The notes beneath the pieces were generated by a model, which made no database searches, had not been told where the DNA came from, and saw nothing but the letters and a program-made list of their open reading frames with translations. Below, piece by piece: positions 48,574-51,713 of a stretch of DNA of 64,000 nt. Source of the DNA: Litoreibacter roseus (GTDB lineage: Bacteria; Pseudomonadota; Alphaproteobacteria; Rhodobacterales; Rhodobacteraceae); NCBI RefSeq assembly GCF_009811795.1, contig NZ_BLJE01000002.1, forward strand, positions 1,116,001 through 1,180,000, read 5' to 3'. How positions within the stretch are numbered: position 1 is the first letter of the stretch; each line of letters opens with the position of its first letter. The translations under genes were made by a program, and so were the position numbers.

Positions 48574-49068
48574 ATGCACTTCGCAGATCATATCCAGACA
48601 GAACGTCTGTCGCTCAGCCCGATGAAAAAACGGGATATTTGGTTCTTTTGTAGGCTCGTCGGCAATTCAAATGTAAGGCGATACCTCGGCGGTCCTGTTC
48701 ATTGGAAGCAACGCCTTCCGCGCTTCAAACGATATTTGAACGCTCCATCCCATGTTGGCGTCTGGGTCGCTAGGTTGACGAGGTTCAACCAACCAATTGG
48801 TCTGGTAGAACTTGGTCTACACAAAAATGAAAGAGACTACGAAGTCTCTTACCAGTTTGACCCATCTTACTGGGGCGGCGGCCTTGCAAGCGAAGCCGTT
48901 CACGCAGTTATCGCGCATGCTCTGGATGAAGCCGGTTTGGAGCGTATCATTTCGGAAACTCAGAGCGCTAACTCTGCGTCTTGTCGTTTGTTGAAATCAC
49001 AGGGAATGGTTGAGATTGAGAGGCTCCATAGATTCGGGGCAGAGCAGACCATTTTTGCAACTAAATGA
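48574..49068 (+). CDS. GNAT-family N-acetyltransferase
   Basis: A 164-residue RimJ/RimL-like acetyltransferase: QTERLSLSPMKKRDIWFFCRLV, then the acetyl-CoA-binding region YWGGGLASEAVHAVIAHALDEAGLERI with the typical GGGLASE loop, and NSASCRLLKSQGM. Substrates of such enzymes include ribosomal proteins, amines and antibiotics. It stands alone, flanked on both sides by mutually similar non-coding repeats, and is AT-richer than the surroundings, consistent with acquired DNA. Confidence 0.85.
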   Translation: MHFADHIQTERLSLSPMKKRDIWFFCRLVGNSNVRRYLGGPVHWKQRLPRFKRYLNAPSHVGVWVARLTRFNQPIGLVELGLHKNERDYEVSYQFDPSYWGGGLASEAVHAVIAHALDEAGLERIISETQSANSASCRLLKSQGMVEIERLHRFGAEQTIFATK

Positions 49069-49079
49069 AAGCCGACGTT

Positions 49080-49195
49080 GGCGCAGTCGCAGCGAAAGCT
49101 CACTTTGTCCCGCACTTCTGTCATCTCCAAGAGTTTTGGCTCCGCTGCATCGCCGCAGGTCCGCTTTGAGCCCATACCTACCGATGCTGAGCTGC
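49080..49195. repeat. Degenerate intergenic repeats between GNAT and reverse transcriptase
   Basis: 49080-49113 aligns with 48399-48432 (28 of 34 identical), and 49152-49195 aligns with 47425-47464 with gaps. The 172-bp space between the GNAT stop (49068) and the RT stop (49241) thus contains one copy of each of two repeat types. No gene is seen in it. Confidence 0.6.
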
Positions 49196-49240
49196 GCATG
49201 AATGGCAGCTTTAGCGACCGCTGTTACTCACTGTCGTTCT

Positions 49241-50548
49241 TCAGGTTGAGCTACCCTGAACGTGCTCTCGCGCGTTGGCTAACTCCAATTTTGCATAGAG
49301 CTTCTGAGCTTTGCTCGGGTTGACCTGTTCGACCCAACCGATCTGCCCCAAGATCTTTTCAAATTCTGCCGGATCGTTTTTCCACGCCTTTTGGTGAATA
49401 ATTGCCTTTAGCCGATCGAATTCCTTTCGAGAGATATTGATTGTCTCATTGACTACAATTCCCAAGACCATCTGCCTTCGATAGCAGGGCATAATCCTCG
49501 TTTTGCCGGTTCTTATTCTAAAGCCTTCCTCCTCTACGATCTCGGGTACGGTGGTGAGAACCGCGTCGCGTACTCCACTATCTCCTGAAAAAGTAAGATC
49601 GTCGGCATACCTCGTATAGTTTGCTCCAAGCGACCGCGCCAAACCTGCCAAACGCCGATCCAATCGATACGTCAGCAGGTTCGCGAGCGCCGGTGAACTT
49701 GGTGCACCCTGAGGCAGATGAGGCTCCATCAATGTTTGGCGTTGTTCATACGGCATACGTTGTCGAATACGGCTTGGCGTAACGATGGTGCAGATGCCGC
49801 TGAGGCCGTGCGCTACAGAAACTGGATATCCGAGGTGGCGAAAGAAGGCATAGACGCGCCCATAGCGAAGACTACTAAAATAATTCTTCAGATCGAGGCC
49901 GATGACGACTTCTTCGCCAGCATGCCGTTGTGCTGCACCAATGCAATTTCGTCCGCGAACAAACCCAAAACTATCCGGGTGTGTTGGCACCTTGGCAAGA
50001 ATTCGATGATTTATCAGGCGCTGAAGTGACTTCAGTCGGGGTTTGGGTGCCTCAATGAGCCTCAAGCCACCACTGGACTTTGGGCTCATACGATAGAAAT
50101 AATTGTTCACGCCCGGCATCGGATGTGTTTCTCGCCACCCGTTCCTGTCCACGAATGCGTCAAGCTGCTCAGGCGTTAGGAGGAGCCAATCGGCAAGATC
50201 AATGGCTGTGTGCAACGTGGGAAGCACCAACGCATCAAACGGCGCGACGGGTAGCATCCTGGGTGGTTCAAGCGGAAGCGACGGCCATACATCGGCTTTG
50301 TTGCAATGCTTGAAGAGCCGCCGCACTACTAGTTGCTTGGATAGCATTTCAGCTATTCGGTTCGCATCAGGGGCGTAGCGTTGAGGGAATTCGACGATCA
50401 AACTATTCGTCAACAACTTTGCGTCACTTTGAAAAGCCGGAGGTAAACAATGGCGAAGAAGGCGGGTGACATCGTCTTGGGACCACCGGCACCCCTCCAA
50501 TCGAGTGGCCAGGGTTGATACAAGAAGTTCACTTCGCGAAGCTGGCAA
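49241..50548 (-). CDS. Retron-like reverse transcriptase with N-terminal extension
   Basis: A 435-residue RNA-directed DNA polymerase. Catalytic landmarks: LDLKNYFSSL with Asp219, HLPQGAPSSPALANLL (residues 278-292), YTRYADDLTFSGD with YADD at 314-317, and GFRIRTGKTR followed by MVLGIVVN (360-367). The QGAPSSP and YTRYADDLTFS motifs are of the retron type. Retrons usually have VTG where this protein has VLG, and no NAxxH motif is evident. Residues 1-140 are an extension of unknown fold. TTG at 50548, preceded by AGAGG, opens the frame. A structured RNA candidate lies directly upstream; no effector gene is evident next to it. Confidence 0.88.
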   Translation of the reverse strand: MPASRSELLVSTLATRLEGCRWSQDDVTRLLRHCLPPAFQSDAKLLTNSLIVEFPQRYAPDANRIAEMLSKQLVVRRLFKHCNKADVWPSLPLEPPRMLPVAPFDALVLPTLHTAIDLADWLLLTPEQLDAFVDRNGWRETHPMPGVNNYFYRMSPKSSGGLRLIEAPKPRLKSLQRLINHRILAKVPTHPDSFGFVRGRNCIGAAQRHAGEEVVIGLDLKNYFSSLRYGRVYAFFRHLGYPVSVAHGLSGICTIVTPSRIRQRMPYEQRQTLMEPHLPQGAPSSPALANLLTYRLDRRLAGLARSLGANYTRYADDLTFSGDSGVRDAVLTTVPEIVEEEGFRIRTGKTRIMPCYRRQMVLGIVVNETINISRKEFDRLKAIIHQKAWKNDPAEFEKILGQIGWVEQVNPSKAQKLYAKLELANAREHVQGSST

Positions 50549-50946
50549 CGACGACCTCTGCTATTCTGTGCTTTGGATATCCCGTCCTGAGTGAAACTCA
50601 GTGGCGGATATCCACAGTGTGTCGGAGCAATGTCATCAGACGGGGATACCCCGCCCCAGGCTCACCAAAAGGTGCACCAATCCAAAGGCCGCCGTTATGA
50701 ATATCTTGCCGACCAATGATGACTATTTCAAGGAACGCGGACTTGGAAAACAGAAGTGCAAACTAATCCATCACAAGATAGAAAGCAGCCATTCGTACCA
50801 GAAATCGCGAGGTCCGCTTCGTCCCGCTTTGCTGACCTTAGCGTTTGTGTAGTCACACTGCATCTTCACGAAGCCGTTTATGACCGACAGCTCCGCCAAA
50901 TACGTCCGGTGACGGTCAACAGGTAGCCATCGAAAGTATCGGTCGC
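50549..50946. other. 398-bp non-coding region upstream of the reverse transcriptase
   Basis: No gene is supported here. It holds the structured RNA candidate (50571-50687) and, further away, a degenerate repeat related to those around the GNAT gene (50803-50845: GAAATCGCGAGGTCCGCTTC...). The rest shows no recognisable element. It separates the RT module from the Crp/Fnr gene. Confidence 0.6.
50571..50687 (-). ncRNA. Candidate msr-msd (retron RNA) upstream of the reverse transcriptase
   Basis: On the RT strand the segment is bounded by complementary 8-nt arms, CTTTGGAT (50687-50680) and ATCCAAAG (50578-50571), like a1/a2. Between them are three hairpins: GGTGCACC-TTTT-GGTGAGCC (50678-50659, one mismatch), CGGGG-TAT-CCCCG (50653-50641), and a long stem with outer GGATATCC (50613-50606 and 50582-50575) and inner CTGAGT-TTC-ACTCAG. 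The order, two small hairpins then a long stem, is that of retron msr then msd. The RT start lies 23 nt downstream. Inferred by inspection only; the arms overlap the msd stem, and the a1/a2 stem is short. Confidence 0.55.
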
Positions 50947-51621
50947 TCAGTTGCGGTCGCCCAAGGACAGGGTCAGCAGCGTGTCGGGGCGCAGGACGAC
51001 GATTGTATGGATGTTGTTGATCGCGATGATCCCGCTCTTGCGGAGTTGGGTGAACGTGCGGCTGATGGTTTCCGTCGTCAGTCCCAGAAAATCAGCGATA
51101 TCAGCCCGGCTCATCGGCAGATTGACCTGCGTATGCTCCCCTAGATCTTCGCCCACGCGGTCCGAGAGCACACAGAGAAACGACGCGACTTTCTCAACGG
51201 CTGACTTGCGACCGAGCATCATGAAATGGTCCTGCATTGCGCTGATTTCGCAAAGGGCTGCTTGCAGCAGTGCATGATGCAGCTTTGGATCGCCCTCGCC
51301 GTTTTCCAGAACCGAGCGGCGATAGGGCTGCAGACGCGCGTCGACAAGGGCGTCGCAATCGGTGTGATGCAAGCCAGCGGACGGAAAGCCGACGATGTCG
51401 CCCGGGTACCCAAATGCGATCACCTGCCTGCGCCCGTCCTCTAGCAGTCGCGTCAGCCGCAGGACGCCCGATGTCACCTGATACAACCAGTCCACCTGAT
51501 CACCTTCGAAATAGAGGTAGTGGCCGGCCTTCAGCCGCGCCTCTGCGGTTTTCGCGCCTGAACTCGCGAGTGTCCTGACGGGCATTTTTGCAAGGTATTC
51601 AGCGGGATTCGTGACATACAT
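50947..51621 (-). CDS. Crp/Fnr-family regulator without Fe-S cysteines
   Basis: A 224-residue regulator with an N-terminal cyclic-nucleotide-binding-like beta barrel (about residues 30-110) and a C-terminal winged helix. The recognition helix LTTETISRTFTQL carries E184, S187 and R188, the E-xx-SR pattern of Fnr/FixK proteins that recognise TTGA-N6-TCAA. There is no Fnr-type N-terminal Cys cluster, so it does not sense oxygen itself; it resembles FixK/Dnr-type proteins. ATG at 51621 follows GGAGG; a longer frame is less likely. It is divergent from the response regulator. Confidence 0.88.
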   Translation of the reverse strand: MYVTNPAEYLAKMPVRTLASSGAKTAEARLKAGHYLYFEGDQVDWLYQVTSGVLRLTRLLEDGRRQVIAFGYPGDIVGFPSAGLHHTDCDALVDARLQPYRRSVLENGEGDPKLHHALLQAALCEISAMQDHFMMLGRKSAVEKVASFLCVLSDRVGEDLGEHTQVNLPMSRADIADFLGLTTETISRTFTQLRKSGIIAINNIHTIVVLRPDTLLTLSLGDRN

Positions 51622-51713
51622 GGCGGCAGACCTCCGGGGTTGCGATGAGGTCAAACTGGGTACGCTGTGTAATTTGGATTGGTCTCTGCCGGTGAGGTTT
51701 TGTATCATTTTGT

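Follow-up and report, generated by a model that had tools for sequence, protein, structure and literature searches.

A proposed, probably active retron of an untyped lineage in Litoreibacter roseus, with a covarying msr-msd RNA and no conserved effector gene found beside it

Upstream of a reverse transcriptase (RT) gene of Litoreibacter roseus (assembly GCF_009811795.1, contig NZ_BLJE01000002.1) lies a structured leader, and the question that it raises is whether this leader is the RNA partner of a retron, where it begins and ends and whether the locus holds a whole system. The window is the complete 64,000-nt stretch of the contig that was analysed (positions 1,116,001 to 1,180,000, forward strand). 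A sequence-only reading had placed in the gap before the RT a compact msr-msd RNA of 117 nt, closed by two complementary 8-nt arms; the presence of a retron RNA was borne out by comparison with homologues, while the arms and the end points had to be redrawn, the true span being 50546-50697. Based on the sequence evidence presented here, the locus is interpreted, with a probability of about 0.9, as a complete and probably active retron that comprises this msr-msd RNA and the RT at 49241-50548 and belongs to an untyped lineage resembling Retron-Mxa2 (Mx65) (Table 1).

Table 1. Coordinates of the proposed retron and its parts in the window.
Feature	Position	Strand	Basis or remark
Retron-clade RT, 435 aa	49241..50548	-	Pfam RVT_1 5.5e-21; PADLOC; PDB; motifs
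Retron msr-msd RNA (proposed), a1 to a2, 152 nt	50546..50697	-	R2 match, R1 match, covariation
a1 arm TAACGGCGGCCTTTG	50683..50697	-	pairs with a2 over 15 bp, G-U pairs among them
Predicted priming (branching) guanosine, first base past a1	50682..50682	-	G in 73/76 homologues
msr hairpin 1, TTTT loop	50659..50678	-	folds in the window; varies among homologues
msr hairpin 2, 8-bp stem, 3-nt loop, GGGG-TAT-CCCC core	50638..50656	-	most conserved element
msd hairpin	50566..50617	-	compensatory change in stems
msd lower stem	50606-50613 with 50575-50582	-	
msd apical hairpin	50587-50601	-	4x4 internal loop between lower stem and apex
Predicted template of reverse-transcribed DNA, at most 77 nt	50561..50637	-	inferred: stretch from hairpin 2 to a2
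a2 arm CAGAGGTCGTCGTTG	50546..50560	-	last three bases are the TTG start codon of the RT

The RT of the window has an intact reading frame with a TTG start and an intact YADD motif. By sequence comparison it is a member of the retron clade, retron RTs being ranked first by PADLOC, NCBIfam and the PDB. The PADLOC ranking is headed by RT_other (414 bits) and RT_outgroup (390 bits), followed by RT_XIII (300 bits), the alignment of which begins at residue 108 and leaves the N-terminal 107 residues uncovered; none of the typed retron profiles (I-XIII) is thus the best match, and the same first two models were obtained in the same order for all the clade RTs scanned (16/16, the window and 15 others). 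In NCBIfam the top match is the RT of retron St85 (188 bits vs a cut-off of 235), and in the PDB it is the Ec86 retron RT (3.3e-31). When a profile of 46 clade RTs (A7) was compared with the PDB, 12 of the first 14 rows were named retron RTs and the remaining two were labelled only as RNA-directed DNA polymerase. The genome contains a single copy of this RT and one other retron-type RT, a 588-aa RT-Toprim fusion (PADLOC RT-Toprim_I-C, 567 bits; locus L002, 574-2340, minus strand, G000:C1:483086-486808).

It may be asked whether the leader serves instead as template for a defence RT outside the retrons, of the DRT type or another, which would give rise to repetitive or protein-primed DNA, as some non-retron bacterial RTs have been described to use neighbouring structured RNAs. 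NCBIfam did return Drt2 and Drt3a for the window RT, at scores far below the cut-offs (36.8 and 16.4 bits vs 390 and 200). The top PDB and NCBIfam matches are retron RTs, and the RNA shows the retron layout, with an a1/a2 helix, a G right after a1 and the msr hairpins followed by that of the msd, which makes a DRT-type origin of the leader very improbable.

YADD occurs in 45 of the 46 clade RTs (YVDD in the other one) and the His of region X in 46/46. The Asn of the NAXXH motif is missing in the window RT, where region X reads AAQRH, and is found in just one of the 46; this residue is not strict in known retrons, as it is missing from 2/16 validated retron RTs, including that of Mx65 (PMC6868368). 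The region-Y triplet of the window RT is VLG and not VTG, the latter being present in 13/15 close homologues and 20/46 clade RTs, and in 14/16 of the validated retron RTs (PMC6868368).

In addition, the window RT carries an N-terminal extension of ~107 aa, in which no known domain was recognised by PDB profile search or Pfam. The profile of this part gave weak, scattered PDB matches, and Pfam found no domain common to two members of the clade. The best of the PDB matches, an engineered cytochrome trimer (E 0.00016), was judged spurious.

Regarding the RNA, the structural pieces described by the sequence-only reading are all present on the RT strand, namely the arm letters CTTTGGAT at 50680-50687 and ATCCAAAG at 50571-50578, the CACC-TTTT-GGTG and GGGGCGGGG-TAT-CCCC hairpins and the stem built from GGATATCC/GGATATCC and CTGAGT/ACTCAG, and the distance to the TTG start codon was given correctly (22 bases lie between). 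Compared with 200 dinucleotide shuffles, the 117-nt segment has the better fold on the RT strand (z -4.03) and also on the other strand (z -3.67). This extent is too small, the 15-bp a1/a2 helix being mostly outside it: the strongest long-range helix upstream of the window RT joins 50683-50697 with 50546-50560. When 1000 random 140-nt stretches of the window were examined, four contained arms of eight Watson-Crick paired bases separated by 90 nt or more, so that those first proposed are not trivial. As a1/a2, they did not hold: in 12 homologues 67.7% of their cells are paired, which is level with shuffles, and the base of the msd stem is a competing pairing. As a closing helix they were rejected, since 58/500 shuffles pair as much and 407/500 match their compensatory pairs. 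A shorter inner pairing between the end of a1 and the bases after the msd (4 pairs) reaches 91.7% of cells paired, barely above shuffles (13/500 as high; compensatory pairs matched in 349/500). The bases after the msd (50571-50574) resemble the start of a2 and could pair with 50683-50687; judging from the sequences, the inner end of a1 may have an alternative partner in close relatives.

The whole 152-nt element folds at -70.3 kcal/mol on the RT strand (z -4.92) and at -55.9 on the opposite strand (z -3.33). Among 400 tiled 152-nt stretches of the window, two, both elsewhere, fold equally low, so the folding energy alone is no proof of an element, and the comparative evidence is what supports it. 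The outer half of hairpin 2 pairs otherwise in the minimum-energy fold of the 152 nt, and its consensus pairing does appear in the 117-nt fold. Hairpin 1, which varies in both length and sequence from one homologue to another, was for this reason left out of the model. A promoter search detected nothing sigma-70-like upstream on the RT strand, and 49000-51000 showed no terminator. A gene for a Crp/Fnr-type regulator (50947-51708), likewise on the minus strand, precedes the retron RNA by 249 bp, and no promoter-like match was found on that strand between the two. The RNA and the RT are probably produced from one transcript.

Comparative support comes from alignments of the RNAs upstream of homologous RTs. 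When 23 RNAs were aligned together by plain MAFFT (A2), a1 and a2 came out misaligned in a distant group, and A2 was for that reason split into sets of 12 (A3) and ten (A4) for folding; L016 is in A2 only, and L074, L075, L087 and L102 were folded singly, outside A2-A4. In A3, the source of the main pair counts and of covariance model R1, the consensus structure has 98.1% of 419 cells paired and compensatory change in 18 of 35 pairs (46 cells), with representatives in all four modelled helices. Shuffled alignments did not reach these values on four of five measures (0/500), and 1/500 did so on the fifth; versions of the structure slid along the alignment paired at most 46.1% of cells, a comparison favoured, chiefly on cells paired, by the fact that RNAalifold derived the structure from A3 itself. 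The a1/a2 pairing is shown by this covariation at the sequence level: its 14 modelled pairs are paired in 99.4% of cells and seven show compensatory change. Hairpin 2 is paired in 100% of cells in the 12 homologues, and its inner three G-C pairs are kept in all 41 sequences of a larger alignment (A5). Within the msd, compensatory change affects 6/8 lower-stem pairs and 3/5 apical pairs.

The ten RNAs of A4, aligned separately, gave the same outline, with 23/31 pairs compensatory. In A5 the count rises to 31/35 pairs (356 cells), in an alignment fitted to the model, so that these counts lean towards it. In a search for long-range helices in 28 rows (27 distinct loci), the confirmed helix was read by inspection as the top one in 21/28 and as one of the first three in 25/28; L015, L075 and L087 did not show it. 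Inspected by eye, the minimum-energy folds of 27 loci mostly share one outline, composed of an outer helix, a variable hairpin, a GGGG-loop-CCCC hairpin and a long hairpin with an internal loop.

The base that follows a1 is the position at which a retron would be primed. In the model-fitted alignment it is G in 73 of the 76 homologues with a readable a1 (A in two and C in one), a count from which two rows, L079 (antisense) and L096 (cut), are omitted. An A precedes this G in 59/76 and the context is AGC in 30/76, whereas in the window the context is TTG-G-A, with G50682 preceded by G instead of the usual A-G-C. In known retrons the a1 stem contains the priming G or ends just before it, in contexts such as TAGC and CAGC, or GAGC in Mx65 (PMC6868368). 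By analogy with them, G50682 is predicted to be the priming base.

The position of a2 raises a further possibility, namely that the fold does no more than regulate the RT gene in cis, as a leader or attenuator in which a1/a2 hides a ribosome-binding stretch and the TTG. Such a role would agree with the a2 of the window, which holds an AGAGG ribosome-binding-like stretch and the TTG, and with that of L003, its closest relative, which has the TTG at the same place; in both, this TTG is the only or the likely start codon of the RT. Many homologues, among them L004-L008 and L015, have their first likely start downstream of a2, and a2 is conserved there anyway; besides, neither the msd hairpin nor the fixed G past a1 is needed for such a function. 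As a full account of the fold, cis-regulation is therefore a poor candidate to which we assign little weight, and it could be an added role of the RNA and not an alternative to a retron. If the start codon is right, folding of the RNA and translation of the RT from one transcript would exclude each other, and folding of the template could block RT translation through the overlap with a2.

The retron reading is further supported by the association of the RNA with clade RTs across genomes. In the family set (394 genomes, own genome included), an RT match of some kind occurs in 64 genomes and a full-length homologue in 15; apart from that of the window, the full-length RTs are 14 in number and 41-63% identical to it. 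Two covariance models were used, R1 (12 sequences) and R2 (41 sequences), the window RNA being in both training sets. R1 detected the RNA in 16/394 family genomes, with one match each and every one beside a clade RT; these are the 15 genomes with a full-length RT and G079, where the RT runs off the contig end. Ten of these 16 matches are outside the R1 training set. The proposal of a compact msr-msd RNA on the RT strand is thereby sustained, the structure being found upstream of 15/15 full-length family RTs and of the cut sixteenth. In other phyla, too, R1 gives scores to RNAs located next to RTs. In the window, R2 gives 103.5 bits over the full model (1-155/155), its sole match at E up to 1.

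The test set of R2 comprised the best 80 of 575 RT relatives from a wider genome scan, and the RNA was found beside 77 of these 80; 48 of the 77 loci lie outside its training set (four that duplicate trained loci are counted as inside it). Of the three loci missed, L058 lacks upstream sequence, whereas L087 and L095, which do have it, are genuine misses. Going by the labels of their records, the 77 loci span at least Pseudomonadota, Myxococcota, Bdellovibrionota, Acidobacteriota, Planctomycetota, Gemmatimonadota and Actinomycetota. Searched by RNA alone, 4/398 genomes of the phylum and 8/59 of the family of a Pyxidicoccus genome carry it; the RNA is thus sparse, being missing from most genomes searched, and a clade RT adjoins it in every one of these matches (for G000 and G333 the RT was taken from the family search). 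Plasmid-borne relatives have the RNA in 2/3 examined cases, R2 missing one.

In the clade itself, the RT frame of locus L118 (G628:C6:341694-342980) contains one in-frame TGA, and yet the RNA upstream of it scores strongly (82.6 bits). Outside the clade, the highest R2 score on 18 RT loci is 18.0 bits (L119); L017, L018 and L019 gave weaker matches, located on the RT strand. In L017, L018 and L119 the RT frames are ~600 aa or more and R2 gives 13.9-18.0 bits upstream on the RT strand; these matches are possibly related retron RNAs and may be distant cousins of that described here. In Rfam, no family matched the window at the gathering score, and nothing was detected on the element in nine loci (that of the window included) at E up to 5.

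These data also bear on the simplest alternative, that of an ordinary palindromic repeat or terminator that happens to lie near the RT and has no functional link with it. Hairpins of high G+C content are common, and the two window tiles mentioned above fold as low as the element. Against such an origin, the own genome holds one real copy (the strong R1 match of 131 bits, the second having E 0.26), the RNA occurs only beside a clade RT in the genomes searched by RNA, and its helices show compensatory change; the chance of an unrelated repeat is practically negligible.

Concerning the lineage, a tree of 70 RTs places the window together with L003 (SH-aLRT 100) inside a mostly alphaproteobacterial branch, and several branches follow phyla; the tree was built by a quick method and 24 of its 67 inner branches are open. 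Among 24 loci examined, nine (L128-L134, L136 and L041) have nadD and a PBP4 gene upstream, nadD being within 1.4 kb in eight and at ~4.5 kb in L136, and in seven of the nine ettA lies on the downstream side. The eight nadD loci with complete RTs form one clade (SH-aLRT 99). This shared setting in a single clade indicates that one branch kept the retron at one core-genome site; the branch of the window itself is not at the nadD site. One of these records, L041 (CP059262.1), is a metagenome-assembled genome labelled Exiguobacterium profundum (Bacillota) that carries the nadD-retron-ettA arrangement of the alphaproteobacterial branch, and it is probably mislabelled.

A linked or fused effector, as in typed PADLOC retrons, was found neither in the 80 loci nor in the N-terminal part, which has no known domain. 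No neighbour gene is common to more than five of the 80 loci within 5 kb (ORFs of at least 60 aa, with less flank in several loci). As controls, the same BLAST criterion links the RT in 80/80 loci and clusters the fast-changing N-terminal 100 residues of the RT in groups of up to 35. Leaving aside the synteny that close relatives share locally, neighbour clusters do not exceed five loci; those of this size are partly generic genes (ABC, SDR) and partly unnamed actinobacterial ORFs, antisense or shifted, at the same place. The effector search also took six genes on either side in 24 loci; the gene caller missed the RT in L132 and L136.

This result weighs on a rival that differs from the preferred explanation in its last step only, in which the locus is a working retron of a tripartite lineage and the effector is encoded elsewhere in the genome. 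Retrons are described as systems of RT, ncRNA and effector, which is in favour of such an arrangement; yet no gene recurs within 5 kb of more than five of the 80 loci under a criterion that recovers every RT, and a distant effector is considered unlikely.

In the retron interpretation preferred here, most of the testable features are found at the sequence level: the RT belongs to the retron clade, the a1/a2 helix covaries and a G follows a1. The RNA would fold through a1/a2 pairing and be recognised by the RT at the msr, most likely at the invariant hairpin 2. This element is the probable recognition site because the msr stem to which region Y of the RT binds in Ec86 likewise has 8 bp and a 3-base loop (PMC6868368). 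G50682, where the a1/a2 duplex ends, would prime synthesis through its 2'-OH; the position is conserved and the chemistry is taken from known retrons. The RT would copy from the base next to a2 (50561) through the msd hairpin towards 50637 and presumably stop before it reaches hairpin 2; the product would be a hairpin DNA of ~60-77 nt, expected to be linked 2'-5' to the RNA. Because no effector gene is conserved beside the retron, the whole system encoded by the locus would apparently consist of the msDNA and the RT, including the N-terminal domain of the latter.

More tentatively, and with more doubt than confidence, it can be hypothesized that this is a phylum-spanning lineage that needs no effector gene, in which the RT with its N-terminal domain and the ~155-nt RNA constitute the whole system, old enough to have been fixed beside core genes (nadD, ettA) in a branch of the Rhodobacterales. 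In that case it may serve a host function or defend through the RT-msDNA complex, and not as a tripartite toxin-antitoxin.

The interest of the locus lies in this effector-less, phylum-wide RNA family, which was not seen in the literature searched, a scope that lies outside the retron classification papers that might describe it. An unannotated leader becomes a defined retron RNA with assigned arms, priming base and template, and the covariance model, which has no Rfam counterpart, allows a large untyped group of retron RTs to be recognised by its RNA as well as by its protein. Since no common linked effector was found and one branch sits at a core-genome site, these loci offer a direct way to test what effector-less retrons do, which is an old question. 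DNA-writing tools for Alphaproteobacteria and Actinomycetota could in addition be based on the retrons native to these groups.

As to known systems, PADLOC also employs msr-msd covariance models (PMC9252829), and the two models that best match the window RT, RT_other and RT_outgroup, are RT profiles without a type. A review distinguishes 11 retron RT clades with ncRNA structures (PMC8867640). Retron type XIII provides the third PADLOC model, from residue 108 of the window RT, and differs in the uncovered N-terminal residues and in that no conserved partner gene is present here. Retron-Bth1 is, by its published description, likewise a putative retron without an obvious effector and with an unclassified RT; unlike the window, it belongs to Bacillus thuringiensis and resides on an extrachromosomal element, with the RT interrupted by a group II intron (PMC12548924). 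Retron-Eco1 (Ec86) is the best match among solved structures, and hairpin 2 of the window has the shape of its msr stem, whereas the window system has ~100 extra N-terminal residues, no conserved partner gene and a different RNA. The closest likeness is with the Mx65 family, compared here by published descriptions (PMC6868368). Vertical inheritance has been reported for Mx162 and Sa163 (PMC6868368), and among the myxobacteria the clade RT and its RNA occur together in 8/59 genomes of the Pyxidicoccus genome's family. The 162-nt DNA of Mx162 is far longer than the product predicted for the window (PMC6868368). Mx65 itself (Retron-Mxa2, from Myxococcus xanthus) primes at a G at the end of a1 (GAGC; TTGGA in the window) and, like the window RT, has the Asn of NAXXH substituted, and it shares with Mx162, Sa163 and Ne144 the N-terminal RT extension that is also found here (PMC6868368).
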